Assembly (NCBI RefSeq): GCF_007856155.1
Contig: NZ_CP042266.1
Location: 7,192,001-7,256,000, forward strand
Direction of reading: 5' to 3'
DNA: 64,000 nucleotides
Origin: Streptomyces qinzhouensis
GTDB taxonomy: Bacteria > Actinomycetota > Actinomycetes > Streptomycetales > Streptomycetaceae
This document shows, piece by piece, positions 3,587 to 64,000 of the stretch. Each line of letters starts with the position of its first letter. The stretch's first letter is position 1. The position numbers were made by a program, and so were the translations under genes. Below the pieces are notes generated by a model, which was not told where the DNA came from, made no database searches, and saw only the letters and a program-made list of their open reading frames with translations.

Positions 3587-3720
3587 CGGAACTGACGGAG
3601 CAGACGGAGCTGAACATGGCCACGCCCACGCCCCCCGACAAGGTCGTCGAAGCGCTCCGCTCCTCGATGAAGGAGACCGAGCGGCTGAGGCGCCAGAACC
3701 TGAGTCTGGTCGCCGCCGCC
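3295..3720 (+). other. Docking pair FscD C-terminus / FscE N-terminus
   Basis: After the module 16 ACP the tail has one helical stretch ([14 protein letters not shown]), a linker and a final short helix with [15 protein letters not shown], then a Thr/Asp-rich end. The next protein starts with a basic amphipathic helix ([20 protein letters not shown]) directly before its KS. This is the usual class 1 four-helix-bundle plus coiled-coil arrangement. The acidic tail facing a basic head supports direct transfer from module 16 to module 17. Both ends look different in sequence from the other docking ends in the window, which would help keep this junction specific. Confidence 0.7.
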
Positions 3721-13542: not shown

Positions 13543-13695
13543 TCGGGCCGTCCGCGCCTTTGACCTCTCCCTCCTTCGCTGTAGGAAGGCTCCACCCCCA
13601 TGCCGAACGACAGCAAGCTCGTTGACTACCTCAAGTGGGTCACCGCTGATCTGCACCAGACTCGCCAACGACTGCTGGACGCCGAGTCGCAGAAG
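13294..13695 (+). other. Docking pair FscE C-terminus / FscF N-terminus
   Basis: The FscE tail after its last ACP contains helices ([29 protein letters not shown]) and ends with the acidic recognition helix [11 protein letters not shown]. The FscF head is a basic coiled coil ([20 protein letters not shown]) running straight into the KS. This is the class 1 docking code common in actinomycete modular PKSs. The same two types of end recur at the FscB/FscC junction, so selectivity must rest on a few charged residues. The 57-bp gap between the genes holds a good ribosome site (13584-13589) and nothing else I can identify. Confidence 0.72.
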
Positions 13696-22600: not shown

Positions 22601-25600
22601 CCACCGCAGGCGGTCGTACGCCCTCCGGCGAAGCCCAGACCACCGGCCCCGGCACCGACCGGGACGGAACCACCGCACGGCGTACGGCCGTCCCCGCGGT
22701 CCACCCCGAACTGGCGCTCGCCGCCCTGTGGCAGGCCGTCACCCGGCCCGACCCGACCCTGATCCTGCTCGACCTGCGGCAGCCGCATATCCTCGACACC
22801 CTCGTAGGACTGCGCGGCAACCCGCTGCTGGCCGGACTTCCCGCCGCCCGGCAGGCCCTCGCCGACGCCGCGGCGGCCCGCGAGGACATCACCTCACAGG
22901 CGCACGAACTCACCCTGCGGCTGCGTGCCCTGCCGACCACCGAACGGCTGACCCTCGTCACCGACCTGGTACGCACCCACGTCGCCGCGGTCCTCGGCCA
23001 CAGCGGCAAGGCCGCCGTCTCCGCCGACCGCAAATTCCGGGACCTCGGATTCGATTCGCTCACCGCCGTCGAACTCCCCGCCCGCCTCCACCTGGCCACC
23101 GGTCTGAAACTCTCCGCCACGGCCGTCTACGACTACCCGACCGCCACCGGCCTCGCCGAACACCTCCTCGCCGAACTCCTCGGCGAACAGCGGCCGGACA
23201 GCCCAGCGGCCCGAACCCTCCGCACCGTGCCCGACGACGATCCGATCGCGATCGTCGGCATGGCCTGCCGCCTTCCCGGCGGGGTCCGTACGCCCGAGGA
23301 TCTGTGGCAGCTGGTCTCCACCGGACGGGACGGCATCGAACCCTTCCCCACCGACCGCGGCTGGGACCTGGGAACCCTCGGCGCCGGCGACCGCGACGGA
23401 CGAGGCCGCAGCGCCACCCTGGAAGGCGGATTCGTCCCCGGCGTAGCCGACTTCGACGCCGGCTTCTTCGGGATCTCGCCGCGCGAGGCCCTCGCCATGG
23501 ACCCGCAGCAGCGGCTCCTCCTGGAAACCTCCTGGGAGGCCGTCGAGCGCGCCGGTATCGCACCGGGCTCCCTGCACGGCAGCCCCACCGGCGTCTTCGT
23601 CGGCACCAGCGGCCTCGACTACGCGACCCTGATGATGAACTCCCGCGAGGACATCGGCGGCCACGCCGGCACCGGCCTCGCCTCCAGCGTGCTGTCCGGG
23701 CGGATCTCCTACACTCTCGGCCTCGAAGGGCCCGCCGTCACCGTCGACACCGCCTGCTCCTCATCGCTGGTGGCCCTGCATTCGGCCGCCCAGGCACTGC
23801 GGGCGGGCGAATGCTCACTCGCCCTGGCCGGCGGAGTCACCGTCATGGCCACGCCGGTCGGCTTCGCGGGCATGACCGTCCAGGGCGGTCTCGCCGCCGA
23901 CGGTCGCTGCAAGGCGTACGCGGACACCGCCGACGGCACCAACTGGTCCGAGGGCGTCGGCATGCTCGTCCTGGAACGCCTTTCCGACGCCCGCGCCAAC
24001 GGACACGAGGTGCTGGCGCTGGTCCGCGGCTCCGCCGTCAACCAGGACGGTGCTTCGAACGGCATCACCGCCCCCAACGGGCCCTCCCAGCAGCGCGTCA
24101 TCCGCCAAGCCCTCGCCGCCGCCGGACTCACCCCCGCCGATGTGGACGCCGTAGAGGGCCACGGCACCGGAACCGCACTCGGCGACCCCATCGAGGCCCA
24201 GGCGCTGCTGGCCACCTACGGCCGGGACCGGGACCCGGACCGGCCGCTGTTGCTCGGCTCGCTGAAGTCCAACATCGGGCACACCCAGGCCGCCGCCGGA
24301 GTGGCCGGTGTGATCAAGACCGTCCTCGCGCTGCAACACGGCATCCTGCCGAAGTCCCTGCACATCGGCGAACCCTCGACCCACGTCGACTGGACCTCCG
24401 GGACCATCGACCTGCTCACCGAGGCCCGGCCATGGCCGCGGGCGGACCGCCCCCGGCGGGCCGGAGTCTCCTCCTTCGGCATCAGCGGCACCAACGCCCA
24501 CACGATCATCGAACAGGCCCCGCCCGCCGAAGCCCCGCCCGCCGAAGCGTCCGAAGCGCGGTCCCCGAGGCCCTCCGCCGTACCCTGGCCGGTGTCCGCG
24601 GCCGGCCCCGCCGCCCTGGACGAGCAGCTCACCCGCCTCACGGCACACGCCGAGGGCCGGGACCCGCTCGATATCGGCCACTCCCTCGCCACCTCCCGTA
24701 CCGCCCTCGCCCATCGGGCCGTGCTCATCGACGGCACGGAGGTCGCCCGCGGCGAAGCCGCCGGACACACCACCGCCTTCCTGTTCTCCGGGCAGGGCGC
24801 ACAGCGCCTCGGAATGGGCCGGGAGCTGTACGGCCGCTTCCCCGTTTTCGCCGAGGCCTTCGACGCCGTCTGCGCGCAGCTCGATCCGCTCCTGGAGCGG
24901 CCGCTGCGCGAGGTGATCTGGGGAGACGACCCCGAGCCGGTCGACCGGACGGAGTACGCCCAGACCGGGCTGTTCGCCGTGGAGGTGGCCCTGTTCCGGC
25001 TGCTCGCCTCACTGGGCGTACGCCCCGACCTCGTCGCGGGACACTCCGTCGGTGAGATCGCCGCCGCCCATGTCACCGGGGTGTTCACGCTCCCCGACGC
25101 CTGCACGCTCGTCGCCGCCCGCGGCCGGCTGATGCAGGCACTGCCCGAAGACGGCGCCATGGCCGCCCTCCAGGCATCCGAGGAGGAAGTACGCCCGCTG
25201 CTCACCACACGGCTGGCGGTCGCCGCCGTCAACGGACCGACCTCGGTCGTCGTCTCGGGCGCCGCCGACGCCGTGGAGTCCGTACGGAGTCATCTGGAGC
25301 GGAAGGGGCGGAAAACAACCCGGCTGCGGGTCTCGCACGCCTTCCACTCGCCGCTGATGGACCCGATGCTGGACGAGTTCCGGGCCGTCGTGGCCGACTT
25401 GGCCGTCGCCGAACCGGACACTCCGCTCGTCTCCACCCTCACCGGCACCGCGGTCGGAGCCGAACGGCTCCGGGACCCCGGCTACTGGGTCCGGCACGTC
25501 CGGGAAACCGTCCGCTTCGCCGCCGCCGTGCGCACCCTGGGCGAAGCGGGGACCTCCACCTTCCTGGAAGTCGGCCCCGGCGCCACCCTCGCGGCCCTGG

Positions 25601-28600
25601 TCCCACAGACCCTCGGCGCCGTCGGCGCCGACGCTCCTGACAGCGTCTGCGTACCCGCTCTGCGGGCGGACAGGGCCGAGGAGACCGCGCTGGTCACCGC
25701 CCTGGCCCGGCTGTACGTCACCGGCGTGGGCGTCGACTGGCCGAAGCTCTTCGACGGCACCGGCGCCCGCCGCACCGGCCTCCCCACCTACGCCTTCCAG
25801 CACGACCGGTACTGGCCGCGCCCCGCACCCCTGTCCGGGGACGTCACCTCGGCCGGTCTGGTGCCCGCCGAACACCCGCTGCTCGGCGCGGCGGTCCCGC
25901 TCGCCGGAGCCGACGGCACCCTGTTCACCAGCCGGCTCTCGCTCCGTGTCCACCCGTGGCTGCTCGACCACCGCACCGGCGGGACCGTCCACTTCCCCAC
26001 CACCGCCTTCCTCGAACTCGCCGTCCAGGCGGGCGACCAGGTCGGCTGCGGACACCTCGGGGAGTTCACCGTCACCGCACCTCTGCCGCTCTCCGGCGGT
26101 GCCGAACCCGTCATCCAGGTGTGGGTCGGCGCACCCGACGAAGCCGGCGGAGACCGTACGGTCGCCTGCTACGCGCGACCGGGCGACGCGGCCCCCGACG
26201 AGCCGTGGACCCGGCACGCCACCGGTGTCCTGACCGCGCGGGCATTCACCGCGACCCCGGCCCCGGCCGTGTGGCCACCGGCCGGAGCCGCGGCCGTCGA
26301 CCTCGACGGCTTCTACGGCGACCACGCACCCGGGCCCGTCTTCCGGGGCCTGCACGCCGCATGGCTGCACGGTGACGAGGTATTCGCCGAGGTACGGCTG
26401 GACGGTGAGGCAGCCGACGACGCCCGCTGGTTCGGCCTGCACCCGGCGCTGTCCGCCGCATCCCTGCACGCCGCCGCCCTCCTCGGCCTCGGCGACGAGG
26501 AGCAGCTGCCGCGGCCACAGGCATGGCAGGGCCTGACCCTGCACGCCGGCGGCGCCTCCGTACTGCGGGTCCGCCTCGCCCGGTCCGGCGACGACACGGT
26601 CGTCATCGACGCGTACGACGCCGAAGGCGCCCCCGTCCTGTCCGCCGCTTCGGTCACCCTGGCCGCCGCCGGCACCGGACCCGGCACCGCCCGCGCCACC
26701 GACCGCGAGCCGCTGTTCCGGCTGGAATGGATCCCGGCCGGCCCGGAGGGCGCGCCCGCCGCGGCGCCGGACGCCGTCGCGCTCGGCGCCGACGACCCCT
26801 ACGGCCTCGGCGCCCGCACCACCACCCTCGCCGAACTCGCCCGGCCCGGCACCCGAGTGCCGGAACTGGTCGTCGTACCGCTGCCCGAGTGCACCGGCGG
26901 CGAGGTCCCCGCCGCCGTACACACACTGACCCATCAGGTACTGGCCCTGGTACGGGAATGGCTGGACGGGGAGCGGTACGCCGCCTCCCGGCTCCTCCTC
27001 GTCACCCGCCGGGCGATCCGCGCCGCCGACGGCGACACCGTCGACGACCTCGCGGGCGGAGCCGCGTGGGGACTGGTGCGCTCGGCCAACTCCGAGCACC
27101 CCGACCGGTTCGCCCTCCTCGACACCGAGCGGGACACCGACGTCGCCGAGGCCATCGCCCGGCTCGCCGGCCCGCTCGCCGCGGGCGAGGCCCAGTTCGC
27201 CGTACGCGACGGAGTCCTGCACGTCGCCCGGCTCGCCAGACTGGCGACCGCCCCGAGCCTGCTGCCCCCGGCCGGTGAGGGATGGCGGCTGGCCCTGCCC
27301 GAAGACGGCGCGAACGGCGAGCCGCGGCTGGAGCCCTGCCCCGACCCGGCCCGGCCGCTCACCGAAGGCGAAGTACGGGTCCGCGTCGCGGCCGCCGGCC
27401 TCACGGGCGAAGCCACCGACGGCCCCGCCGCCCGGATCGCCGGCACCGTCACCGCCACCGGACCCGGCGTGACCGGCCTGCGCACCGGCGACCGGGTGAT
27501 GAGCACGGAACCGGCCGCCGCCGGCCCCTTCGCCGTCCTCCCGCGGAGCGGCCTCGCACCCGTCCCGGACGACTGGACCTGGGCCCGGGCCGCCGCCCCG
27601 GCCGGCCCGGTCGCCTCGTACGACATCCGGCACGCCCGGACGGTCCTGCGTACCCGCACCCCGGACAGCGAACCCCTGGACGGCACGGTGCTCACCATGC
27701 CGCCCGTATGGAACCCCGAGGGAACCGTCCTGATCACCGGCGGTACCGGCGCACTCGGCCGCCACCTCGCCCGCCGACTGGCCGCCCGGGGCAGCCGGCA
27801 CCTGCTGCTCACCAGCCGGCGCGGCCCGGCCGCGCCCGGCGCCGCCGAACTGGCCGCCGAACTGGAGACCCTGGGCGCCTCCGTCACCGTCGCCGCCTGC
27901 GACACCGCCGACCGGGCGGCCACGGCCGCCCTGATCGCGGACATCCCGGCCGCACACCCGCTCACCGCCGTGATCCACACCGCCGGTGTGCTGGACGACG
28001 GCATCATCACCTCGCTGACGCCCGCACGACTGTCGGACGTCCTGCGGCCCAAGGTCGACGCGGCCTGGCATCTCCACGAACTCACCCGCGGGCTCGACCT
28101 GGCCGCCTTCGTCACCTTCTCGTCCATCGCGGGTGTCATGGGCAGCCCCGGCCAGGGCAACTACGCCGCCGCCAACTCCTTCCTCGACACCCTCGCCGAA
28201 CACCGCACGGAACTCGGACTCCCCGGCACCTCCCTGGCCTGGGGCCCCTGGGTGCAGGACGCCGGCATGACCAGCGAACTCAGCGACACCGACATGCGGC
28301 GGATGCAGTCCGGCGGTATGCCCCCGCTCTCCATCGAACAGGGACTCACCCTGTTCGAGGCGGCCCTCGGCTCCGCCGAACCGCTCGTCATCCCGATCGG
28401 GCTGACCGGCGCCGGTATGCGCCCGCAGGGCGAGGTCCCCCCGCTGTTCCGGGGCCTGGTCCGCACCGCCCGGCGCACCGCCGCCAACACCACGGGCGGC
28501 GACGCCACCGGAGAACTCACCCGGCAGCTCCTCGCCCTCGGCGAGAAGGACCGGCTGCGCTACCTCACCGACCTGGTACGGACCGAGGCGGCGACCGTGC

Positions 28601-29739
28601 TGGGCCACGCATCGGCCGACGCCGTCGACGCCGAACGGGACTTCTACGAGCTGGGATTCGATTCGCTGACCGCCGTCGAACTGCGCAACAAGCTCGCCGC
28701 CTGCACCGGTATGCGACTGTCCGCGACGGTCGTCTTCGACACCAGGACCTCGACCGGCCTGGCCGGCTGGCTGCGCGGCGAACTCGCCGAACAAGCCCGC
28801 GGCGAGGACACCGCGGGCGGCGGCGCCGGCCTCGGCCGTACCTCCGGCGAACCGGAACCCGGCTCACTGGAGCGGCTCTTCACCGACGCCCTGGCCGCCG
28901 GCAAGGTCACCGAGGCCCAGCGCATGCTCGCCGCCCTGGCCGCGCTCCGCCCCGTCTTCGAGGAATCCGCCGAACTGGAGGATCTGCCCTACGCGTCGAA
29001 ACTCTCCGAAGGACCGGCCGCCCCCCGGCTGATCTGCGTCAGCGCACCCACCGCCAACGCCGGTATCCACCAGTACGCCCGGCTCGCCGCGCACTTCCGC
29101 GACCAGCGCCAGGTGACGGCGCTCCCCCTGGTCGGTTTCGAAACCGGGGAACGCCTGCCCGCCACCCCGGAGGTCGCCACCCGGGTGATCGCCGAGAGCG
29201 CCCTGCGGGCGGCCGAAGGCAAGCCGTTCGTCCTCGTCGGGCACTCCTCGGGCGGCTCCTTCGCCTATGCGGCCGCCGGACTGCTGGAACACACCTGGGG
29301 TATCAAGCCCGCCGGCGTGGTACTGCTGGACACCTACAGCTTCCAGCACAACGACGGAGAAGGCATCGACTACCGGGGCGTGATGCGCCTCAACTTCGCG
29401 AACACAGCCCCCCAGGACGGCTCCGTGGAAGGCCCGGTGGTCAGGCTCACCAACGCCCGGCTGTCCGCCATGGGCCGCTGGATGGTCCTCCTCAGCCGGC
29501 TCCGGGTACAGCACACCAGCGCCCCCGTACTGCTGGTGAAATGCGCGAGGCAGCTGTTCGGAACCGACGACCGGCCGATCGAACAGCAGCCGTCGGCGGA
29601 GCGCGCGCCCCTGGTCGCCGGAGCCCAGGAACGGGCCGTGGACGCCGACCATCTGTCGATGATCCGCGAGGACTCGGCGCGGACCGCGCAGATCATGGAG
29701 GAGTGGCTCACCGCGTACGCGCCAACGCCCCGCGGCTGA
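13600..29739 (+). CDS. fscF: Type I polyketide synthase, three modules (19-21) with terminal thioesterase
   Basis: Complete 5379-residue PKS starting at ATG 13600, with GGAAGG at 13584-13589 upstream. Order: N-docking helix; KS-AT-DH*-KR-ACP (19); KS-AT-KR(dead)-ACP (20); KS-AT-DH*-vestigial ER-KR-ACP (21); TE. All three ATs have HAFHS (malonyl). The TE makes this the last PKS of the line: it releases and cyclises the chain. Predicted oxidation from the carboxyl end is C3-OH, C5 ketone and C7-OH. This pattern is as I recall it for partricin-type aromatic heptaenes. The gene is followed by a 206-bp gap containing hairpins, so transcription may end here. The three modules differ in codon style: module 19 is largely T/G-ending, while 20 and 21 are C-ending. 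Confidence 0.93.
14332..14815 (+). repeat. Homogenised KS 3' block, copy 3 (module 19, partly diverged)
   Basis: It matches the module 17 and 18 copies in two sub-blocks (about 14332-14395 and 14525-14660, then again 14725-14815). The stretches between, for example around 14400-14500 and 14665-14720, are clearly different and use C-ending codons. This is the patchwork expected of repeated short gene-conversion tracts. Confidence 0.75.
16660..18055 (+). repeat. Homogenised DH*-KR block, copy 3 (module 19, in the next gene)
   Basis: Third copy, in fscF rather than fscE. It shares the left boundary ([16 protein letters not shown]) with module 17 and the interdomain patch with module 18, so it looks like a mosaic of the two. 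The right boundary is near PYLVPLG, where all three copies switch back to C-ending codons and diverge. Confidence 0.85.
18502..23190 (+). other. PKS module 20: KS-AT(malonyl)-KR(dead, Tyr to Val)-ACP; leaves a ketone
   Basis: The KS Cys codon is 19027-19029 and AT HAFHS is at 20605-20619. There is no DH. The KR structural half starts near 21130 (DTEFWTAV). In the catalytic half the nucleotide motif is altered (TGGTGGRG), VDD replaces LDD (22228-22236), and Val (codon 22399-22401) stands where the catalytic Tyr should be (GRAAVAAAN against GQGNYAAAN). The Ser is present. The KR should therefore be inactive and the module should pass on a beta-ketone, predicted at C5. A Glu/Pro/Thr-rich insertion follows (about 22492-22690). 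The ACP Ser codon is 23056-23058, and the helix after it reads ELPARL rather than ELRNRL. Confidence 0.9.
22492..22695 (+). other. Low-complexity Glu/Pro/Thr linker after the dead KR of module 20
   Basis: Directly after the WGAW motif of the KR, the protein continues with an alternating Glu-Pro/Glu-Thr run ([15 protein letters not shown]) and then about 50 Gly/Thr/Ala-rich residues before helical sequence resumes ([13 protein letters not shown]). The sister KRs have a short structured connection here, usually with Met-rich GM motifs. The DNA shows the matching hexamer-like repetition (cccgaa, accgaa). I infer relaxed constraint and repeat expansion in a KR that no longer works; a flexible tether is the alternative reading. 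Confidence 0.6.
23236..28800 (+). other. PKS module 21: KS-AT(malonyl)-DH(inactive)-ER(remnant)-KR-ACP
   Basis: The KS Cys codon is 23755-23757 and AT HAFHS is at 25336-25350. The DH is full length with His at 25969-25971 and a GPVFRG motif, but the catalytic Asp of [10 protein letters not shown] is Ala ([10 protein letters not shown]; Ala codon 26455-26457). About 27280-27710 is a shrunken enoylreductase: the start ([12 protein letters not shown]) and a central stretch (GLRTGDRVM) align to the module 3 ER, but the NADPH-binding HAATGGVG region and everything after it are gone. The KR is intact: LDD 27991-27999, Tyr 28162-28164. The ACP Ser codon is 28663-28665. Predicted product step: C3 hydroxyl. 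Confidence 0.88.
28870..29736 (+). other. Type I thioesterase domain, macrolactone-forming
   Basis: This is an alpha/beta hydrolase domain at the extreme C-terminus of the FscF-like protein. The nucleophile elbow is GHSSGG with Ser codon 29245-29247 (residue 5216). The acid is Asp in LLDTYS (29329-29331, residue 5244) and the base is His in DADHLSM (29650-29652, residue 5351). Order and spacing are normal for PKS TEs. It should take the full-length chain from the module 21 ACP and close the lactone onto the C37 hydroxyl made by module 4. Its presence marks the end of the assembly line, not the end of the gene cluster. Confidence 0.92.
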
Positions 29740-29885: not shown

Positions 29886-29928
29886 TCCGCGCTGGTGAGA
29901 CTGGGCGGGAACCCCGGCATCTCTCCTC

Positions 29929-29945
29929 GAGAGGTTGACATCCTG
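29929..29945 (+). promoter_or_regulatory. Ribosome binding site deciding the fscB start
   Basis: GAGAGG (29929-29934) precedes ATG 29946 by 11 bases. The alternative in-frame GTG at 29895 would add 17 residues unlike any PKS docking head and would put the start almost on the putative promoter, so ATG 29946 is chosen. Confidence 0.7.
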
Positions 29946-46025
<16,080 letters not shown>

Positions 46026-49100: not shown

Positions 49101-52100
49101 GCAACGGCCGCCGGACGGTGAGCATCCGCTCGCGCCGTGAGGGAGCCGACGACCGGGCGTGGCTCACGCACGCGACGGGTGTACTGGCCATGGGTGAGCG
49201 GACCGTCGCCCTTGACGCCCCGGGCGCCGGCTGGCCCCCGGCCGGCGCCGAACCGGTCGACCTGACGGGCCTCTACGACCGTATGTCCGAGGCCGGATTC
49301 GACTACGGCCCGGTCTTCCAGGGCCTGCGGGCCGCCTGGCAGCAGGGCGAGAACGTGTACGCCGAGGTCGCACTGCCCGAGGGCGTCGACGGCAGCCCCT
49401 ACGGCCTGCACCCCGCGCTGCTGGACGCCGCGCTGCATGTCACCGCCTTCAACGGGGTGCCGCGGGGTGTGGTGCCGTTCTCCTGGGAAGGTGTGTCACT
49501 GCACGCCTCCGGCGCTTCGTCGGTGCGGGTGCGGGTGACCCGTACCCGCGAGGACTCGCTCACCGTCGCCGTGGCCGATACGGCCGGTGAGCCGGTGGCA
49601 TCGGTGGAATCGCTGGTGCTGCGCCCGGTCGGTGCCCCCCGTCCGGGGGACCGGGACCCGGTGTTCGGTGTGGAGTGGGTACCGGTCCGGGTGCCGGGGC
49701 CGGTGGCGGTGTCCCCGGACGTGGTCATGGTGCGGCTGTCGGGTGACGAGGACGTGGTGCGGTCGGCGCACACGCTGTCGGCGCGGGCGCTCTCGCTGGT
49801 GCGGGAGTGGCTGGAGGAGGAGCGGCCCGCCGACTCCCGGCTGGTGTTCGTCACCCGTGGCGCGCTGTCCGGCGAGGATCCGGCCGGCGCCGCGGTGTGG
49901 GGGCTGGTGCGTTCGGCGCAGTCGGAGCACCCCGGCCGGTTCCTGCTGGTGGACGTGGCGGGCGAGGAGCCGGGGAGCGGCCTGCTGGACACCGTACTGG
50001 CCGTGGACGAGCCCCAGTTGCTGCTGCGCGACGGCGAGGTGCTGGCCGCCCGGCTGACCCGCGCCGGTGCGGACCGGGAGACGGCTCCGGAGTGGGCGGG
50101 CGAGGGAACGGTCCTGATCACGGGTGGTACGGGTGGTCTGGGGCGGGTGATCGCCCGACATCTGGTGGCCGAACACGGCGTACGCGGCCTGCTGCTGGTG
50201 AGCCGGAGCGGCCCGGCCGCGGAGGGCGCCGCCGAGCTGGTCGCGGAGCTGACCGGGCTGGGTGCCGAGACCGTCGTCGAGGCCTGCGATACCGCCGACG
50301 CGGCAGCGGTGACGGAGCTGTTCTCCCGCCATCCGGTGCGGGCCGTGGTCCACACGGCGGGTGTGATCGACGACGGTGTGGTGGAGGCGCTGACGCCCGA
50401 GCGGCTGTCGGCGGTGCTGCGCCCCAAAGTGGACGCCGCGTGGAATCTGCACCAGGCGACCAAGGACCGCGACCTCGCCGCGTTCGTGCTGTTCTCTTCC
50501 GTCTCCGGCCTCTTCGGCGGCCCGGGCCAGGCCAACTACGCCGCCGGAAACGCCTTTCTGGACGCTCTCGCCGAGCACCGCCGAGCCGCCGGACTGCCGG
50601 GCACCTCGCTGGCCTGGGGCCCGTGGACCAGGGACGGCGGTATGACCGGCACCCTGTCCGAGGCCGACCGTCGGCGCATCTCCCGTACCGGCATGCCGGA
50701 ACTCTCCCCGGAGGAGGGTGCCCGGCTCTTCGACGCCGCCCTGCTCGCGGACGCGGCCCTGGTCGCCCCGGTGCCGTTCGACTTCGCGGCCGTGCGGGCG
50801 CGGACCGAGGTACCGGCGCTGCTGCGGGGGCTGGTCCGGCCCGGCACCCGGAGCCGGCGCTCGGCGGCTTCCGGCGCTCCCGGTTCGCCCGCTGCGACGG
50901 GCCTGCTGCGTACGCTCTCCGACCTCACGGCCGACGAGCGGCGCGAGGTGCTCCTGGACCTCGTACGCGGGCACGTCGCAGTCGTCCTGGGCCACACCGA
51001 CGCCAGCGCCGTCGAACCGTCGCGGGCTTTCCAGGACCTCGGCTTCGACTCCCTGATGGCCGTCGAGCTCCGCAACCGGCTGGGCGCGGCGGCAGGCCTG
51101 CGGCTGCCGGCGACTCTGGTCTTCGACTACCCGACGGCCGAGGTGCTGGTCGGTTTCCTGCTCGACGAGCTGTACGGCGGCGGTACGGCCGATACGGCGG
51201 CGCTGCCGCCCGCGGGGACCGTGGCGGGGCAGGACGACCCGGTGGTGATCGTGGGTATGGCGTGTCGTTTTCCGGGTGGGGTGGGGTCGCCGGAGGATTT
51301 GTGGCGGTTGGTGTTGGATGGTGTGGATGCTGTTGGTGGGTTTCCGGTGGATCGTGGTTGGGATGTGGGGGGTGAGTCGTTTGTGCGGGCGGGTGGTTTC
51401 CTTTATGACGCGGCGGGGTTCGATCCGGATTTCTTTGGGATGAGTCCGCGTGAGGCGTTGGCGACGGATGCTCAGCAGCGGCTGTTGCTGGAGACGGTGT
51501 GGGAGGCGGTGGAGCGGGCCGGGATCGACCCGGTGTCCCTGCGGGGCAGCCGGACCGGCGTTTTTGCCGGTGTTATGTATACGGACTATCGAACCCTGCT
51601 GGAAGGCAAGCAGTTCGACGGCTTCCGGGACAACGGCAGTGCGCCGAGTATCGCTTCCGGTCGGGTGTCGTACACGTTTGGTTTTGAGGGTCCGGCGGTG
51701 ACGGTGGATACGGCGTGTTCGTCGTCGCTGGTGGCGGTGCATTTGGCGGGGCAGGCGTTGCGGTCGGGGGATTGTTCGCTGGCGGTGGCGGGTGGTGTGA
51801 CGGTGATGTCGACGCCGACGACGTTTGTGGAGTTCGGGCGTCAGGGTGGTCTGTCGTCGGATGGGCGGTGTCGGTCGTTTTCGGATGCGGCTGATGGTGT
51901 GGGCTGGGGTGAGGGTGTGGGTGTGGTGGTGTTGGAGCGGTTGTCGGATGCGGTACGGAACGGGCATCGGGTGCTGGCTGTGGTGCGTGGGTCGGCTGTT
52001 AATCAGGATGGTGCGTCGAATGGGTTGACAGCGCCGAATGGTCCGTCGCAGCAGCGGGTGATCCGGCAGGCGCTGGCGAGTGGTGGTCTGTCGGTGTCGG

Positions 52101-55100
52101 ATGTGGATGTGGTGGAGGCGCACGGCACGGGGACGACCCTGGGTGACCCGATCGAAGCGCAGGCCCTGATCGCGACCTACGGCCGGGATCGCGCGGAGGG
52201 GCAGCCGCTGTGGCTGGGCTCGGTGAAGTCGAATATCGGGCATGCGCAGGCCGCGGCGGGTGTCGCGGGGATCATCAAGATGGTCATGGCGATGCGGCAC
52301 GGTGTGCTCCCGCGCACGCTGCATGTGGAGGCGCCGTCTTCGCATGTGGACTGGGCGGCGGGTGAGGTGGAGCTGTTGTCGGAGGGGCGTGCCTGGCCGG
52401 AGTCGGGGCGGGTGCGTCGGGCGGGTGTGTCGTCGTTCGGTATCAGTGGCACGAATGCGCATGTGGTGCTGGAGCAGCCGGAGCCGGCTGCTTTGCAGGA
52501 CGGGGAGCCTTCGATGGTTCCGGGTGTGGTGCCGTGGCTGGTGTCCGGGAAGACGGAGGAAGCGCTGCGGGACCAGATCGCACGCCTGCGCTCCTACACG
52601 GAGGGGGCGGGGTTGCGGCCGGTGGATGTGGGTCTGTCCACCCTCGGCCGGTCGGTCTTTGCTCATCGGGCTGTCGTACTCGACGGTGAGCAGGTCATCG
52701 AGGGCCGGGCGCGGGATGGCAGGACGGCGTTCCTGTTCTCCGGCCAGGGCTCGCAGCGGCTCGGCATGGGCCGTGAGCTGTATGCGCGTTTCCCGGTGTT
52801 CGCGGAGGCTTTTGACGCGGTCTGTGCGGAGCTGGATGTTCCGGTGCGGGAGGTGGTGTGGGGTGAGGACGCGGATGTCCTGAACCGGACGGTGTTCGCT
52901 CAGGCCGCGCTGTTCGCGGTGGAGGTGGCGCTGTTCCGGCTGCTGGAGTCGTGGGGCGTCACACCGGACTTTGTGGCGGGTCATTCGATCGGTGAGGTGG
53001 CGGCGGCCCATGTGGCGGGGGTGTTCTCTCTCGCTGACGCGTGCGCGTTGGTGTCGGCGCGTGGCCGCCTGATGGACGCGCTGCCGGAGGGTGGTGCGAT
53101 GCTCGCGGTCCGGGCGACGGAGGACGAGATCCTGCCGCTGCTGGATACGGCGGTGTCCATTGCCGCGGTCAACGGTCCTTCGGCCGTCGTGGTCTCCGGC
53201 GCCGAGGAGGCGGTGGAGGCGGTACGGGTCCATTTCGAGGCGCAGGGCCGTAAGACGACCCGCCTCCGGGTCTCGCACGCCTTCCACTCCCCGCTGATGG
53301 ACCCGATGCTGGACGCGTTCCGTACGGTCGTCTCCGGGCTGTCGTTCTCCGCGCCCACGATTGCCCTGGTGGCGGGCGCGGAGGAGCTGTGCGATCCGGA
53401 GTACTGGGTGCGGCACGTCCGTGAAGCCGTCCGTTTCGCGGACGGTGTGCGGGCGTTGCACGAGCAGGGCGTGACGAGGTTCCTCGAACTCGGCCCGGAC
53501 GGCGTCCTGTCCGCCTTGGCCGCCGCATGCCTCCCTGACGACGGTGACACCATCCTCGTACCCCTCCTGCGCAAGAACCGTGAGGAGGAGACGGCCGCCC
53601 TCCAAGCCCTCGCTGAGCTCTATGTCGACGGTGCCGAGGTCGACTGGTCAGCCCTCTTCACCGCTACCGGGGCCCGTCCCGTCGAACTGCCCACCTACGC
53701 CTTCCAGCACCGGCGCTACTGGCCCATGAGCGGCGGCTTCGGGCGCGGTGGTGACATACGGCTCGCAGGTCTGGAATCGGCTGAACACCCCCTGTTGGGT
53801 GCGGCCGTGGATCCGGCGGACTCGGATACGTTCCTCTTCACGGGACGGCTGTCGCTGGCCACTCACCCATGGTTCGCGGACCACGCGGTCATGGGTACGG
53901 TGCTGGTCCCGGGAACGGCCCTGGTCGAGATGGCCGTCCGCGCCGGTGACGAGGTGGGATGCCCGGCGGTGGAGGAGCTGACGCTCGCCGCGCCGCTCGA
54001 CCTGCCCGCTGAGGGCGGCGTTCGTGTGCAGGTGGCGGTGGGCGCGCTCGACGGGCTCGGCCGCCGAATGGTGACGATCCACTCCCGCCCGGACGGCGCG
54101 GACGAGGCTCCTTGGATCCAGCACGCCACCGGCTCGCTCACGCCCCCAACCGCTCCGGACACGGCCTTCGACGCGACGGTCTGGCCGCCGGCCGGTGCGG
54201 TGGCGCTGGACGTGGCGGATGTGTACGAGCGGTTCGCCGAGGCCGGATTCGAGTACGGCCCGGTGTTCCAGTGCCTGCGAGCGGCCTGGCGGCTCGACCA
54301 CGAGGTCTACACGGAGGTCTCGCTGCCGCAGGACACGGATCTGACCGGATTCGGTCTGCACCCTGCCCTGTTCGACGCCGGCCTGCACGCGGCAATGCTC
54401 CTCGGTGACGGGGAACAAGGCGTGCCCTTCTCCTGGTCCGGGGTGTCCCTGCACGCCTCAGGTAAGTCGGCTCTGCGGGTACGGCTGTCCCGTACGCCCG
54501 ACGGGGCGATCTCGGCGGCCCTGGCGGATGCCGAGGGAGAACCGGTTGCCTCGGTGACGGCGCTCACCGTGCGTCCGATCTCCGCCGAGCCGCGGCATGA
54601 TGCGTTGTTCGGGGTGGAGTGGGTGCCGGTCCGGGTCCCTGGTCCGGTGGCGGTGGACCCGGATGTGGTGGTGCACCGGCTGACCGCCGAAGGCGATGTA
54701 CCGGCCTCGGTGCACGCGCTGTCGGCTCGGGTGCTGGCTCTGGTGCGGGAGGTACCGGAACCGTCGCGGCTGGTACTGATGACCCGGGGTGCGGTGTCGG
54801 GTGCGGATGTGGCCGCGGCGGCGGTGTGGGGGCTGGTGCGTTCGGCGCAGTCGGAGCAGCCGGGCCGGTTCGTGCTGGTGGATGTGGAGGGTGAGGAGCC
54901 CGCCGCACTGCTGGAGTCGGTGCTGGCTGTCGACGAGCCTCAGGTGTTGGTACGGGGCGGTGAGCTGCTCGTGCCCCGACTGGCCAGGGTCGCGGCCGTG
55001 GGGGAGTCCGCCCCGGCGTGGGCGGGCGAGGGCATGGTTCTGATCACGGGTGGTACGGGTGGTCTGGGGCGGGTCTTCGCCCGGCATCTGGTGGCCGAAC

Positions 55101-58100
55101 ACGGCGTCCGTGGCCTGCTCCTCGTCAGCCGCAGCGGCCCGGACGCCGAGGGCGCCGGCGAACTCGTCGCCGAGCTGAAGCGGCATGACGTACAGGTCGT
55201 GGTGGAGTCCTGTGACATCGCCGAGCCCGCCGCCGTACGCGACCTCTTCACCCGTTATGACGTACGGGCGGTGATCCACACCGCGGGCGTGATTGATGAC
55301 GGTGTGATCGGCTCGCTGACGAACGAGCGGCTCTCGGCAGTGCTGCGGCCCAAGGCCGACGCGGCCTGGAACCTGCACGAGGCGACGAAGGACCGCGACC
55401 TCGCCGCGTTCGTCATGTTCTCCTCCGTCGCCGCCGCGTTCGGCAGCGCGGGGCAGGCGAACTACGCGGCCGGCAATGCCTTCCTCGACGCCCTTGCCGG
55501 GCACCGACGGGCCCTGGGCCTGCCGGGTGTCTCCCTCGCCTGGGGTCCCTGGGAACGGACCGGCGGAATGACCGGTTCGCTCACCGACGCGGAGGTCGAG
55601 CGCATCACCCGGCTGGGTATGCCGCCGCTGCCCGTGGCCGATGGCCTGGCCCTGTTCGACGCCGCGCTCTCGGCCGAACGGTCGGCGATCATGCCGGTCC
55701 GGCTGGACCTGGCCGCGATCCGCGCGCTGGGCGAGGTGCCGGCGCTGCTCCGTGGTCTGATCCGGACCAGGGCGCGCCGCACCTTACGCACGGGGACGGC
55801 CGACGCGGCCGCACTGCGCACGAGACTGTCCGGCCTCGCCGCTGAGGAGCGGCACGAGGCCGTGCTCGACCTGGTGCGCGCACAGATCGCGCTGGTGCTC
55901 GGGCACGGAGGCGCGGCCGATGTCGATCCGGCGCGGGCCTTCCAGGATCTGGGCTTCGACTCCCTGACGGCGGTCGAGCTGCGGAACCGGCTGGGTTCGG
56001 TGACGGGGCTCCGGCTGCCCGCCACCGTGGTCTTCGACTACCCGACGGCGGACGCGCTCGCCGGATTTGTCCGCGGCGAAATCCTCGGGGGTGAGGCCGA
56101 AGCTGCTCCGATCGCCGTGCCCCAGGCCGTGGCGGGGCAGGACGACCCGGTGGTGATCGTGGGTATGGCGTGTCGTTTTCCGGGTGGGGTGGGGTCGCCG
56201 GAGGATTTGTGGCGGTTGGTGTCGGATGGTGTGGATGCTGTTGGTGGGTTTCCGGTGGATCGTGGTTGGGATGTGGGGGGTGAGGCGTTCGCGCGTGCGG
56301 GTGGTTTCCTCTATGACGCGGCGGGTTTCGATCCGGATTTCTTTGGGATGAGTCCGCGTGAGGCTTTGGCGACGGATGCTCAGCAGCGGTTGTTGCTGGA
56401 GACGGTGTGGGAGGCGGTGGAGCGGGCCGGGATCGACCCGGTGTCACTGCGGGGCAGCCGGACCGGCGTTTTTGCCGGTGTCATGTACAGCGATTACGCG
56501 AGTCTGCTCGACGGCCGGGAGTTCGAGGGGCAACAGGGCAGCGGCAGTGCGCCGAGTATCGCTTCCGGTCGGGTGTCGTACACGTTTGGTTTTGAGGGTC
56601 CGGCGGTGACGGTGGACACGGCGTGTTCGTCGTCGCTGGTCGCGCTGCATCTGGCGGCGCAGGCGCTGCGGTCGGGGGATTGTTCGCTGGCGGTGGCGGG
56701 TGGTGTGACGGTGATGTCGACGCCGACGACGTTTGTGGAGTTCGGGCGTCAGGGTGGTCTGTCGTCGGATGGGCGGTGTCGGTCGTTTTCGGATGCGGCT
56801 GATGGTGTCGGCTGGGGTGAGGGTGTGGGTGTGGTGGTACTGGAGCGGCTGTCGGATGCGGTGCGGAACGGGCATCGGGTGCTGGCTGTGGTGCGTGGGT
56901 CGGCTGTTAATCAGGACGGCGCCAGCAACGGCCTGATGGCCCCGAACGGCCCCTCGCAGCAGCGGGTGATCCGGCAGGCGCTGGCGAGTGGTGGTCTTTC
57001 GGTGTCGGACGTGGATGTGGTGGAGGCGCATGGCACGGGCACCACACTCGGTGACCCGATCGAAGCGCAGGCCCTGATCGCGACCTACGGTCAGGACCGT
57101 GAACTCCCGCTGCTGATCGGTTCGGTGAAGTCCAATATCGGGCATGCGCAGGCCGCGGCGGGCGTGGCCGGAGTGATCAAAATGGTGCTGGCCATGCGGC
57201 ACGGCCTGGTGCCGAAGACGCTGCACCTTGATGCGCCGTCCTCGCACGTCGACTGGGCGGCGGGTGAGGTGGAGCTGTTGTCGGAGGGGCGTGCCTGGCC
57301 GGAGTCGGGGCGGGTGCGTCGGGCGGGTGTGTCGTCGTTCGGTATCAGTGGCACGAACGCGCATGTGGTGCTGGAGCAGCCGGAGCCGGCTGCTTTGCAG
57401 GACGGGGAACCTTCGATGGTTCCGGGTGTGGTGCCGTGGCTGGTGTCCGGGAAGTCGGAGGAAGCGCTGCGGGACCAGGTCGAGCGGTTGCGGTCGTATG
57501 CGGAGGGGGCGGGGTTGCGGCCGGTGGATGTGGGTGTGTCCACCCTGGGGCGGTCGGTTTTCGCTCATCGGGCTGTCGTACTCGACGGTGAGCAGGTCAT
57601 CGAGGGCCGGGCGCGGGGTGGGAAGACGGCGTTTCTGTTTTCGGGGCAGGGGCCGCAGCGGTTGGGGATGGGGCGTGAGTTGTATGCGCGTTTCCCGGTG
57701 TTCGCGGAGGCTTTTGACGCGGTCTGTGCGGAGCTGGATGTTCCGGTGCGGGAGGTGGTGTGGGGTGAGGACGCCGATGCCCTGAACCGGACCGTGCACG
57801 CCCAGGCCGCGCTGTTCGCGGTCGAGGTGGCGCTGTACCGGCTGGTCGAGTCCTGGGGTGTGACACCGGACTTTGTGGCCGGTCACTCCATCGGTGAGGT
57901 GGCCGCGGCCCATGTGGCGGGGGTGTTCTCCCTCGCTGACGCGTGCACGCTGGTGTCGGCGCGCGGCCGCCTGATGGACGCGCTGCCCGAGGGTGGTGCG
58001 ATGCTGGCGGTCCAGGCGACGGAGGACGAGATCCTGCCGCTGCTGGAGACGTCGGTGTCCATCGCCGCGGTCAACGGCCCCAGGGCCGTCGTCGTCTCCG

Positions 58101-61100
58101 GTGCCGAGGAAGCGGTGGAAGCGGTACGGGTCCACTTCGAGGCCCAGGGCCGTAAGACGACCCGCCTCCGGGTTTCCCACGCCTTCCACTCGCCGCTGAT
58201 GGACCCGATGCTGGACGCGTTCCGTACGGTCGTCTCCGGGCTGTCGTTCGCGACTCCACGGATCGGCATGACCACAGGCACGGACCTGGTGTGCGATCCG
58301 GAGTACTGGGTACGGCACGTCCGCGAAGCCGTCCGCTTCGCGGACAGCGTCCGCACCCTCACCGAAGCGGGCGTGACCCGCTTCCTCGAACTCGGCCCCG
58401 ACAGTGTGCTTTCAGCCCTGGGCCAGGATTCGGCACCGTCCGACACCCTCTTCCTGGCCGCACTGCGCAAGGGCCGCAACGAGGAAGAGACGGCCGTACG
58501 CGCCTTGGCCGAGCTCCACGTCGCTGGTGCCGGGGTCGACTGGTCAGCCCTCTTCACCGCTACCGGGGCCCGTCTCGTCGACCTGCCCACCTACGCCTTC
58601 CAGCGTCGGCGCTTCTGGCCCGCCGGCCCGGTACTGCGGGCCGGTGACGTGCGGTTCGCCGGGCTCGGTGCGACCGAACATCCGATGCTGGGCGCGTCCG
58701 TGAGCCTGGCCGACGAGGACGGGACGGTACTGACCGGCCGTCTCTCGCGGCAGACCCACCCGTGGCTGGTCGACCACACCGTCAAGGGTGCGGTGCTGAT
58801 GCCGGGCACCGGTCTCCTCGAACTCGCCCTGCGGGCGGGAGCCGAGGTCGGCTGTGCGGCGGTGGAGGAGCTGACGCTCGGTGCGCCGCTGGTGCTGCCC
58901 GAGCAAGGTGGCGTACAGATTCAGGTACGGGTATCGGCACCCGAGGCCACCGGTCGTCGGACCGTCGGTGTGTACTCGTACACCGAGGGAACCGGCGACG
59001 GGGTATGGGTCCGGCATGCCGACGGTGCGCTCACCACGGACGCCACGGACACTGTGGATACCGTCGGGTTCGATGCGGTGACCTGGCCGCCTGCGGACGC
59101 GGAGACGGTACCGGTCGAGGGGGCCTACGAGCGATTCGCGGAGGCTGGGTTCGGTTACGGGCCGGTGTTCCGTGGGCTGCGGGCGGTATGGCGCCGCGGT
59201 GAGGAACTCTTCGCCGAAGTCGCGCTGCCGGTGGAGGAGCGGGCTGCCGCAGGCCGGTTCGGCCTGCACCCGGCACTGCTGGACGCTTCCCTGCACGCCG
59301 GTCTGCTGGAAGGCGACGGCGATGACACGATCGTCCCCTTCACATGGAACGACGTCACGCTCCACGCCGTGGGCGCCGCCGAGGTACGGGTGCGGCTGAC
59401 CCGCGTCGGGGACGAGGGCCTTTCGTTGCAGATGGCCGACACGGCCGGACAGCCGGTGCTGTCCGTGGGCTCGATGCTCAGCCGTCTCGTATCGGCGGAG
59501 CGGTTGGGGGTCGGGGTTTCCGGGGGTCCGTTGTTCGGGGTGGAGTGGTCGGTGGTTGCGGGTGGGGTGGGGGATGTGTCGTGGGTTGGTTGGGAGGAGG
59601 TTGGGGTGGGGGGTTCGGTGCCGGGTGTGGTGGTGCTGGATTGTGGTGTCGGGGTGGGGGTGGGGGATGTTCCGTCGGGGGTGCGTGCGGTGTCGTATCG
59701 GGTGTTGGGGGTGGTGCGGGAGTGGTTGGCGGATGAGCGGTTCGCGGGGTCGCGGTTGGTGGTGGTGACGCGTGGTGCGGTGGGGGTGTCGGGGGGTGTG
59801 GATGTGGATGTGGTGCAGGCTCCGGTGTGGGGTTTGGTGCGTGCGGCGCAGGCGGAGAATCCGGGTCGGTTTGTGCTGGTGGATGTGGAGCCGGGTGCGG
59901 CCGTGGACTCGGTGGGGCCTGCGTTGTTGTCGGGGGAGCCGGAGTCGGCGGTGCGGGCGGGTGAGGTGTGGGTGCCGCGTTTGGTCCGGCTGGGGGCGGC
60001 CGATGGCGTACGGGAGTTCGATCCCGAGGGGTCGGTTCTGGTGACCGGGGGTACCGGTGGTCTGGGTGGGGTGGTGGCCCGTCGGCTGGTGGCGGAGTAC
60101 GGGGTACGGCATCTGGTGCTGGCCGGTCGCAGGGGTGCCGCTGCCCCCGGTGCGGAGGAGTTGGTCGCCGAGCTGGCCTCGCTGGGTGCTCAGGCTCGTA
60201 TCGCCGCGTGTGATGTGTCGGACCGGGAGGCGCTCGCGGCACTGCTGTCCGGAATGGTCGCGGAGCGCCCGCTGACCGCAGTCCTCCACGCCGCCGGCAT
60301 CAGCAGCAACGCGCTCGTCGGCGCACTGACCGAGGACCACTTCGAGACCGTCCTCGCCCCCAAGGCGGATGCCGCCTGGTATCTGCACGAGCTGACCCGG
60401 GACATGGACCTGGCCGCGTTCGTCCTGTTCTCCTCGGCCGGCGGACTGGTGCTGACCGCCGGACAGGGCAACTACGCCGCGGCCAATGTCTTCCTCGACG
60501 CCCTCGCCGAGCACCGGCAGGCCGAAGGACTGCCCGCGACCTCCATGGCCTTCGGCCTCTGGGACGCGGGAGCGGGCATGGGCACGCTCCTCGCCGACGT
60601 GGACCGCCGGCGGATGGCGGACCAGGGACTGCCCGTCCTCTCGGCCGATACCGGCCTGGCACTCTTCGATTCGGCGTTGCGCTCCGCCCGCCCGACCGTC
60701 GTCCCCCTCGTGGTCGACTCGGCGGCCCTGCGCACCCGCACCGACGAGATCCCCGCTCTACTCCGCGGGCTCGCCCCGGGGCGCGCCCGCCGGGCAGCCA
60801 TCGCCGGACACAGCAGCGCCACAGCCGCCTCGCTGACCCAACGGCTGTCGGGTCTGTCGGCGGGGGAGCGCCGGCGTACGGTGCTGCAGCTGGTCCGGGC
60901 GGAGGTCGCGTCCGTGCTCGGGCATGCGTCGGCCGAGGCGATCGGCGCGGACCGGGCCTTCCAGGAACTGGGCTTCGACTCACTGGCCGCGACCGAGCTG
61001 CGCAACCACCTCAGCCGGGCCACCGGTCTGCGACTGCCCGCCACCCTCGCCTTCGACCACCCCAACGCCCACTCCGTCACCGACCACCTCCTCACCCTCC

Positions 61101-64000
61101 TCGGCGGCAGCGACGCGACCTCGGACGCGGCCCTACGGGGCACCGACGAGCGGCGTCCCGTGGACGGCGACCCGATCGCGATCGTCGGTATGGCCTGCCG
61201 CTATCCCGGTGGGGTGACCTCGCCGGAGGAACTGTGGCGGCTGCTGATGGACGGTGGGGACACCGTCTCCGACCTGCCCGCCGACCGCGGCTGGAACATC
61301 GAGGACCTGTACGACCCGGAGCCCGGCAAGGAGGGCAAGAGCTACACGCGCCGCGGCAGCTTCCTCCATGAGGCGGCGGACTTCGACCCCGCCTTCTTCG
61401 GCATCTCGCCCCGCGAGGCCCTGTACATGGACCCGCAGCAGCGGCTGCTGCTCGAAACCTCCTGGGAGGCACTGGAGCGGGCCGGTATCGACCCCGTCAT
61501 GCTCAGGGGAAGCCGCACCGGTGTCTTCGCCGGCGTGATGTACCACGACTACGCGCTCGGCGCGCACCCCTCCGGTACCAGCGGCGGCAGCATCGTGTCC
61601 GGCCGGGTCTCGTACACGCTGGGCCTGGAAGGCCCGGCCGTCACGGTGGACACCGCGTGCTCGTCCTCACTGGTGGCCCTGCACCTCGCGGTGCAGGCCT
61701 TGCGGTCCGGAGAGTGCTCCCTGGCCCTGGCCGGCGGTGCGACCGTCATGTCCACACCCGGCATGTTCATCGAGTTCAGCCGTCAGCGCGGGCTGTCCCC
61801 GGACGGCCGTTGCAAGGCGTTCGCCGGCAGCGCGGACGGGGTCGGCTGGTCCGAGGGTGTCGGCGTGCTGCTCGTCGAGCGGCTGTCCGACGCCGAGCGC
61901 AACGGGCACCGGGTCCTGGCCGTGATCCGTGGTTCCGCGGTCAACCAGGACGGTGCCAGCAACGGCTTCACCGCCCCGAACGGGCCCTCGCAGCAGCGGG
62001 TCATCCGCCAGGCCCTGGCCGCCGCCGGCCTGTCGGCCACCGAGGTGGACGCGGTGGAGGCACACGGCACCGGCACCACACTCGGCGACCCCATCGAGGC
62101 TCAGGCGCTCATCGCGACCTACGGACAGGACCGCCCGGAGGACCGTCCGGTCCTCCTCGGCTCCGTCAAATCGAACATCGGGCACGCGCAGGCCGCGGCC
62201 GGTGTCGCGGGCGTGATCAAAATGGTCATGGCCCTGCGGGAAGGTGTACTGCCACGCACCCTGCACGTGGACGAACCCTCGCCGCACGTCGACTGGAACG
62301 AGGGCGCGGTGGCGCTGCTCGGAGAAGCGGTGGAGTGGCCCGAGACCGGCCGTCCCCGCCGCGCGAGCGTCTCGGCGTTCGGCATCAGCGGTACCAACGC
62401 GCACGTGATCCTGGAACAGGCCGCCACGGAAGGTCCGATCCCGCAGACCGGGACCAGGCCCGGGGCCGGTGCCGTGGCGGGATCGGAGACCGGCGTACTG
62501 CCGTGGCTACTGTCCGCCGCGACCCCGGAGGCCCTGCGAGAACAGGCCGCGCGCCTGCTCGCGTACATCGACACCCGGCCGGACCTGGACCTGACGGCGA
62601 CGGCCGGCGCGCTGGCCACCACACGGACCGCGCTGGAGCAACGGGCCGCGGTCGTCGGCACCGGACGCGAGGAACTGGCCAGGGGACTGCGCGGCCTGGC
62701 CGCGGGAAACCTCGCACTTCCGAATGGTGTCGTCACCGCGTCCGCCCGAAAGACCGGAACGTGCGCCTTCCTCTTCTCCGGCCAGGGCTCGCAGCGACTC
62801 GGCATGGGGCGTGAGCTGTATGCGCGTCTCCCGGCGTTCGCGGAGGCCTTCGACGCGGTCTGCGCCGAACTGGAGATCCCGGTCCGGGAGGTGGTCTGGG
62901 GCGAGGACGCGGATGCCCTGAACCGGACGGTGTTCGCTCAGGCCGGGTTGTTCGCGGTTGAGGTGGCGTTGTTCCGGCTCGTCGAGTCCTGGGGTGTGAC
63001 GCCGGACTTTGTGGCGGGTCATTCGATCGGTGAGGTGGCGGCTGCGCATGTGGCGGGGGTGTTCTCTCTCGCTGACGCGTGCACGCTGGTGTCGGCGCGT
63101 GGCCGCCTGATGGACGCGCTGCCGGAGGGTGGTGCGATGCTGGCGGTCCAGGCCACGGAGGACGAGATCCTGCCGCTGCTGGACGCGTCGGTGTCCATCG
63201 CTGCGGTCAACGGTCCCACGGCCGTCGTGGTCTCCGGCGCCGAGGAGGCGGTGGAGGCGGTACGGGTCCATTTCGAGGCCCAGGGCCGTAAGACGACCCG
63301 CCTCCGGGTTTCCCACGCCTTCCACTCGCCGCTGATGGAACCGATGCTGGACGACTTCCGCGCGACGGTGTCGGGGATGTCCTTCTCCGCGCCGTTCATT
63401 CCGGTCGTCTCCAACGCGACGGGCGAGATCGCCGAAACCGAGCGGCTGTGCACCCCGGAGTACTGGGTGCGGCATGTCCGTGACGCGGTCCGCTTCGCCG
63501 ACGGCGTCCGCACCCTGGCCGGCCTGGGTGTGACCTCCTTCCTGGAGGTGGGACCCGACGCCGTGCTCTGCGGTATGGCAGCGGACTGCTCGGACGGCAT
63601 CCCCGCCCAGCCCTTGCAGCGCGCGGGCCGGGACAGCGCCACCACCCTGGTCGCGGCGCTCGCCGCACTGCACTGCGCCGGAATCGCCGTGGACTGGCGG
63701 GCGTTCTTCGACGGTACGGACAACCGCCGCATCGACCTGCCGACCTACGCGTTCCAGCGACAGCGGTACTGGCTGGACGCGACCCAAGGGGCAGCCGACT
63801 TGGACTCGGCCGGTGTCTCCTCCGCGGATCACCCGCTGCTGGGCGCCGCGACGGAACTCGTCACGCCCGACGGCTATCTCTTCACGGGCCGGCTGTCGAT
63901 CCGGACGCACCCATGGCTGGCGGACCACACCGTGATGGGCGCGGTGCTGATGCCGGGCACCGGTCTCCTCGAACTCGCCCTGCGGGCGGGTGCCCAGGTC
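46106..64000 (+). CDS. fscC: Type I polyketide synthase, polyene-forming modules 5-8 (open at right edge)
   Basis: Reads open for 5965 codons from ATG 46106 to the window end, with GAGG at 46091-46094 upstream; the preceding gap is only 80 bp and shows no clear signal. Order: N-docking helix; three full KS-AT-DH-KR-ACP modules; then KS-AT and the start of a DH. All four ATs carry HAFHS (malonyl). The three complete DHs have both the HxxxGxxxxP histidine and the catalytic Asp, and all three KRs keep Ser and Tyr, so successive conjugated double bonds are built. FscC of candicidin has six modules as I recall, so about two more are expected to the right. The C-terminal docking tail of the preceding gene fits its N-terminal helix. 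The KR of module 7 is atypical. Confidence 0.92.
46220..51175 (+). other. PKS module 5: KS-AT(malonyl)-DH-KR(IDD)-ACP, first polyene unit
   Basis: The KS Cys codon is 46736-46738; the loop before it reads [22 protein letters not shown] is at 48326-48340. The DH is intact: His 48929-48931 ([11 protein letters not shown]), YGPVFQG, and Asp 49424-49426 ([10 protein letters not shown]). The KR has IDD at 50366-50374 (both Asp kept, B-like) and Tyr 50537-50539 in NYAAGN. The ACP Ser codon is 51050-51052. A B-type KR feeding a DH normally gives an E double bond, predicted C34=C35. Confidence 0.9.
51218..52545 (+). repeat. Duplicated KS block, copy 1 (module 6)
   Basis: From the [19 protein letters not shown] start of the KS to [11 protein letters not shown] after it, this DNA nearly repeats at 56128-57455 in module 7, including the unusual TDAQQR loop and the [15 protein letters not shown] stretch. 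It shows the same G/T-ending codon style as the fscE blocks. It is interrupted by a variable patch around 51570-51640, where the residues after GVFAGVMY differ. Confidence 0.85.
51233..56090 (+). other. PKS module 6: KS-AT(malonyl)-DH-KR(IDD)-ACP
   Basis: The KS Cys codon is 51716-51718. The KS is unusual: the highly conserved MDPQQR reads TDAQQR, and the surface loop after DRGWD is shorter than in every other KS here except module 7. AT HAFHS is at 53276-53290. The DH is intact: His 53882-53884 ([11 protein letters not shown]), YGPVFQC, and Asp 54374-54376 ([10 protein letters not shown]). The KR has IDD at 55292-55300 and Tyr at 55463-55465. The ACP Ser codon is 55961-55963. Product: predicted C32=C33, E. 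Confidence 0.9.
56128..57455 (+). repeat. Duplicated KS block, copy 2 (module 7)
   Basis: Counterpart of 51218-52545. Differences are concentrated around 56485-56560 and 57085-57240, where module 7 has C-ending codons (for example [13 protein letters not shown]). The near-identity then continues into the AT of module 7 up to about 57780. Confidence 0.85.
56141..61110 (+). other. PKS module 7: KS-AT(malonyl)-DH-KR(no LDD)-ACP
   Basis: The KS Cys codon is 56624-56626, with TDAQQR as in module 6. The AT glycine motif is FSGQGPQ (near 57636-57656) rather than GQGSQ; HAFHS is at 58178-58192. The DH is intact: His 58775-58777 ([11 protein letters not shown]), YGPVFRG, and Asp 59282-59284 ([10 protein letters not shown]). 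In the KR the LDD region reads ISSN (60299-60310), and the usual WGPW/WGAW motif is FGLW. Catalytic Ser and Tyr (60473-60475) are kept. It is therefore active, but not classical B type and without the A-type Trp. Predicted product: C30=C31, possibly Z. The ACP Ser codon is 60980-60982. Confidence 0.88.
61166..64000 (+). other. PKS module 8 (partial): KS-AT(malonyl)-start of DH
   Basis: The KS Cys codon is 61658-61660 with a standard MDPQQR loop (ALYMDPQQR). AT FSGQGSQ is near 62770 and HAFHS at 63314-63328. The DH begins near 63820 and its first catalytic His (63926-63928, [11 protein letters not shown]) is present. The window ends shortly after, before the Asp motif and the KR. It should give the next double bond, predicted C28=C29. 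Its KR type, which would bear on E/Z geometry, is beyond the edge. Confidence 0.85.

Follow-up and report, generated by a model that had tools for sequence, protein, structure and literature searches.

The third ketoreductase (KR) of a polyketide synthase (PKS) frame in this stretch of DNA lacks the LDD motif, raising the question of whether the synthase itself sets the cis double bonds of an aromatic heptaene and, if so, which of its domains respond to them. The window, meaning the whole stretch of 64,000 nucleotides that was analysed, covers bases 7192001–7256000 of one 8.15 Mb contig.

Layout and affiliation of the assembly line

All PKS features within the window lie on the plus strand. 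The window opens on the end of an FscD-like PKS for modules 11–16 (2–3586; start at genome 7166808; 9592 aa, six modules), module 11 of which combines a dehydratase (DH) with a KR carrying LDD. There follow a bimodular PKS for modules 17–18 (3616–13542, 3308 aa), a trimodular PKS for modules 19–21 with the C-terminal thioesterase (TE) motif GHSSGG (13600–29739, 5379 aa) and an FscB-like PKS for modules 2–4 (29895–46025). The last frame, an FscC-like PKS of 10279 aa, starts at 46106, is open at the window end (64000) and runs on to genome 7268945; the open reading frame and its domain order give six modules, 5–10. Outside the window, FscC is adjoined by a loading protein (AMP-binding, ACP, ketosynthase (KS), acyltransferase (AT), ACP) and by an aminodeoxychorismate synthase-like protein (GATase plus chorismate-binding), with a stand-alone thioesterase, a P450, a glycosyltransferase and an ABC transporter protein also encoded there. 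In number and order, the PKS modules correspond to the set 1–21 that builds an aromatic heptaene.

The HAFH motif marks a malonate-type AT, and this motif is found in the AT of module 2. Published work gives a malonate-type AT in module 2 as the rule for the partricin group (PMC8944477). With PKSs of this group (partricin, trichomycin and the Couchioplanes caeruleus cluster) the locus shares that AT, a DH together with a KR without LDD in modules 7 and 8, and separate proteins for cycles 17–18 (bimodular) and 19–21 (trimodular, TE-ended); an aromatic starter loading module (AMP-binding, ACP) accompanied by an aminodeoxychorismate synthase gene is likewise present, as the group has it. Aromatic starter loading and heptaene modules 5–11 are common to the candicidin (FR-008) PKS as well, but the candicidin synthase has a methylmalonate-type module 2 AT (YASH) and its KRs without LDD in modules 8 and 9, as published and as also found in genomes G669, G211 and G1067, whereas here module 2 reads HAFH and KR9 retains LDD. 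Judged by its sequence, the cluster belongs with the aromatic heptaene PKSs of the partricin group.

Several features of the surrounding proteins stand on their own. An additional single-module PKS lies by the cluster, outside the window and on the minus strand (genome 7157282–7164460; L002), with a YASH-type AT, a DH, an ER and a KR with LDD; it carries a C-terminal TE motif and is a second TE-ended protein, superfluous to the 21-module count. The KRs of modules 17, 18 and 19 are identical in the loop and in the stretches of the active site (33 residues in all), which suggests recent gene conversion. KR4, in the FscB-like frame, reads LRD and KR10 (window-equivalent 75623–76225) reads LAD, the first Asp being gone and the second kept; both variants recur in G1032.

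Ketoreductases of modules 7 and 8

Module 7 consists of KS7 (56147–57355), which clusters with the KSs following E modules and has a 29-residue loop, AT7 (57626–58453; HAFH, malonyl type), DH7 (58640–59497), which keeps two 10-residue stretches and belongs to a clade of Z-module DHs, and KR7 (60026–60637). In KR7, ISSN (60299–60310) replaces (V/I)LDD and FGLW (60551–60562) replaces WGPW. The preceding E-type reductases, KR5 (50102–50701) and KR6 (55028–55627), have IDD in the loop and end in AWGPW. Catalysis by KRs depends on Lys, Ser, Tyr and Asn, and the residues taken to fill these roles are all retained in KR7, along with an intact nucleotide motif, TGGTGGLG. The first-pass annotation had read these motifs, the retained Ser and Tyr and the IDD loops exactly. 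It had also predicted that the KR of module 8 would lack LDD, and this is borne out beyond the window, where KR8 (genome 7257180–7257791) has the loop IGDS. Neither of the next two, KR9 (LDD) and KR10 (LAD), breaks the pattern: KR5, 6, 9, 10 and 11 all retain the last Asp, and KR7 and KR8 are without LDD.

KR7 and KR8 are 80% identical and share a 20-residue stretch. At the DNA level, modules 7 and 8 are a patchwork in which runs of 137 bases (59528–59664) and 202 bases (60903–61104) are identical and the DNA between them is less similar, an arrangement that looks like gene conversion. Module 8 continues with KS8 (61172–62395), the first KS after a Z module, with a 22-residue loop, then AT8 (62762–63610; HAFH) and DH8 (63791–64000), which is cut by the window end.

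The annotation treated loss of LDD as the mark of an A-type KR, and this holds only in part. KR7 resembles the classical A-type KRs of the Caffrey fingerprint in lacking LDD, but their conserved W between the catalytic Ser and Tyr is missing from the corresponding 15-residue stretch, so KR7 does not qualify as a canonical A-type enzyme; by these motifs, loss of LDD does not by itself make the full A-type fingerprint. Among solved sequences, the closest to KR7 are KRs of the ordinary modular PKS kind, e.g. 8g7w, 9pat and AmphB. Of 42 KRs that accompany Z-type DHs, no more than 5 are reported to have the W motif, and LDD is said to tell A from B type only roughly in such modules; LDD is retained by some KRs partnered with Z-forming DHs, and a Z bond can also come about in other ways (PMC11228615).

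In partricin-group PKSs, a DH and an A-type KR have been placed in modules 7 and 8, with cis bonds at C28 and C30, and in candicidin they occupy modules 8 and 9, with cis bonds at C26 and C28 (PMC8944477). The assignment of C30=C31 to module 7 and C28=C29 to module 8, reached in the annotation by counting, agrees with this, and the Z-bond reading of KR7 and KR8 is supported but already in print. Partricins are given as 28Z and 30Z (PMC8470227) and trichomycins as 28Z,30Z by NMR (PMC12748807). The annotation erred in giving candicidin D as 28Z,30Z, since candicidins are 26Z,28Z (PMC12748807; PMC8944477).

Very probably, then, the locus encodes a partricin-group synthase in which KR7 and KR8 would turn the beta-keto group into a hydroxyl of the configuration from which their DHs form a Z bond, module 7 giving C30=C31 and module 8 C28=C29 in the predicted product of this strain. 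Modules 5, 6, 9, 10 and 11 would give E bonds, and KS8 and KS9 seem adapted to accept a once-bent and a twice-bent chain, respectively.

Position rule in twelve related lines

Searches for KRs of the KR7 type matched 14 of 392 genomes in the genus (E 1e-90), 4 of 248 among relatives (1e-95), 6 of 394 in the class (1e-95) and 17 of 394 in the family (1e-97); the four samples overlap, the window's own genome is counted in each, and some of the matched KRs belong to other PKSs. FscC from module 5 onward was obtained for 12 lines, the window's line among them. The other 11 were selected for their resemblance to KR7 and are of common ancestry, so the counts below are not independent events and accord with the published rule without testing it many times over; lines without such KRs had, by this selection, no way to enter. 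Fragments G841, G912, G316 and G338 and matches G810, G940 and G1039 were left out. In G338, a draft assembly of some 1510 contigs with runs of N, LDD is present one module after the first Z module, where the assembly is suspected to have collapsed. G806 holds a different PKS, with a tandem pair of KRs without LDD. A loading domain of at least 60% identity occurs in seven other genomes, of which G211 is candicidin-like and G316 is one of the fragments; in the parts examined of G060 and G175, every KR beside a DH carries LDD, and G337, G036 and G048 have only the KS of the loading protein in the stretches examined, on one side.

The pair of KRs without LDD stands at modules 7–8 in nine of the 12 lines and at modules 8–9 in three (G669, G211, G1067), in line with the geometries in the literature, 28Z,30Z and 26Z,28Z. 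The module 2 AT is HAFH in all eight 7–8 lines where it was seen (G926 being the exception) and YASH in 3/3 of the 8–9 lines. All 24 Z-position KRs lack LDD (18 GDN, 4 GDS, 2 SSN), and all 47 KRs examined at other positions keep the last Asp (41 LDD, 4 IDD, 2 LAD), a contrast not attributable to chance. This rule of position, like the sequences and the clades, is observed directly. Set against the nine partricin-group lines, the KR7 loop of the window is SSN and not GDN, SSN being found otherwise in G1032 alone among the 12.

Z-module KRs fall into one clade (support 100/100 with 8 rows; SH-aLRT 100 with 24 rows), to which those of the candicidin-like lines also belong, and Z-module DHs likewise form their own clade. 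This DH clade would suit a scheme in which KR7 and KR8 still produce a B-type hydroxyl and the DHs set the Z bond through a different elimination or binding mode, a possibility named in PMC11228615. The A-type W is found in 0/24 Z-position KRs, which favours that scheme and leaves the hydroxyl configuration uncertain from sequence. The scheme is nonetheless improbable: LDD is lost in every Z-module KR and the last Asp in 0/47 others, and the DHs keep their usual His and Asp motifs, with HPA(L/I)LD in 24/24 and HxxxD in two DH8s. Those two, from G926 and G886 (loci within L134–L139 and L143), have HxxxD and not HxxxG as the catalytic His motif, and the second-module DH of G841 also missed the motif pattern.

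Ketosynthases downstream of the Z modules

KSs have been described as tied to upstream processing domains (PMC11321453). The trees comprise 71 rows, because G930 supplies modules 5–9 only, its module 10 lying in another frame. The KS tree shows four groups: 12 KS5s, 12 KSs that follow the first Z module, 12 that follow the second and 35 that follow an E module, among them the KS belonging to the first Z module. Those following the first and those following the second Z module make up two separate clades, complete at 12/12 each. Grouping of KSs by module number across both line types is rejected (p-AU 4.5e-67, 1.1e-41 and 2.2e-11), in a test whose groups were named after the trees had been seen. 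An AT has its closest relative within its own genome in 62 of 71 cases; each of the 24 KSs after Z modules is instead closest to a KS of the same role in another genome, as would be expected of KSs that remain matched to the form of the incoming chain. A nesting of candicidin-like lines inside partricin-like ones, suggested by a quick KS tree, was dropped because a single group of partricin-like rows was not rejected with any of three KS sets (p-AU 0.523, 0.592 and 0.671), and no kink position is therefore claimed to be the older.

The KS groups also differ in a loop beside VMYH. From VMYH to SGR there are 29 residues in 35/35 KSs after E modules, 22 in 12/12 after the first Z module and 17 in 12/12 after the second, with certain residues fixed within each group. 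The corresponding stretch of KS5 has 30 residues in 12/12, the KS5 sequences of four lines being without VMYH. Compared with a solved DEBS KS, KS9 is missing 12 residues at the loop, and KS7 aligns gap-free there. KS7–KS10 have VMYS or VMYH at the place of the motif in VMYH gatekeeping KSs, and differ from these in the loops of KS8 and KS9, which are shortened to 22 and 17 residues; the available text on gatekeeping KSs makes no mention of Z geometry (PMC11321453). The separate clades and cut loops of the KSs after Z modules support a view in which Z bonds are both made and read on the assembly line.

Polyenes isomerise readily, and the Z bonds could be imagined to arise after assembly, through light or an isomerase, the KR change then being neutral or tuning something else. 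Such an origin is scarcely credible, as the KR change tracks both published kink positions and the KSs right after Z modules have clades of their own, escaping the homogenising within genomes seen for ATs. Candicidin D and the partricins, moreover, photoisomerise from cis-trans to all-trans (PMC8468583), so that light removes Z bonds from the native forms and does not make them. The annotation's view of the cis bonds as genome-encoded, not photo-isomers, is supported.

Outside the heptaenes, short loops occur in 7/12 KSs that follow KRs without the last Asp, counted in DH-bearing modules, vs 3/16 after LDD or LAD (Fisher p 0.0497, from hand-entered counts that are not independent); 22 further contigs, none among the 12 lines, were scanned and left out of the comparison. 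This link is weak, and a universal tie between KRs without LDD and short-looped KSs was discarded as unsupported outside the heptaenes, where five of the 12 such KSs are long-looped and three of the 16 after LDD or LAD are short. The KS-side hypothesis thus draws clear sequence support inside the heptaenes and mixed support outside them.

The non-heptaene counts, as well as the relatedness of the 12 lines, lend something to the thought that the KS clades reflect old ancestry or the reach of gene conversion only, with no selection for chain geometry, which would be compatible with the KR explanation. This is a possible but rather doubtful account, given that in candicidin-like lines the KS clades shift one module later along with the Z KRs, and that ATs of the same modules homogenise within genomes. 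Adaptation of the KSs leads to a tentative proposal, put a little short of an even chance, that the cis kink is a travelling unit. In it, Z-forming DH–KR pairs would be coupled to two KSs of their own, further down the line, that sense the form of the chain; the loop would shorten stepwise (29, 22, 17 residues) so that a polyene bent once and then twice can enter, and the unit would sit one module apart in partricin and candicidin types.

The core relation, between the KR pair and two Z bonds, is already known. No prior report on KS loops and Z geometry was found in the part of the open literature covered; the KS side may be new, or could already be in print, for example in the 739-KS study cited in PMC11321453 or in key reviews. 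Native aromatic heptaenes are bent, and their all-trans forms are reportedly more selective for fungal over human cells (PMC8468583). If KR/DH pairs set the geometry and the next KS checks it, direct production of an all-trans drug by the strain would need the matching KSs changed along with KRs, and polyketide engineers would have a specific sequence feature, open to testing, by which to recognise KSs that accept Z chains. KRs whose loop reads xDN, ADG or the like, often in tandem, also occur in other actinobacterial PKSs (G806, G054, G147, G557, G620, G005, G382, G158, G166 and G092; the whole set being L103–L115 and L140–L142), which are candidates for further makers of Z,Z-dienes.
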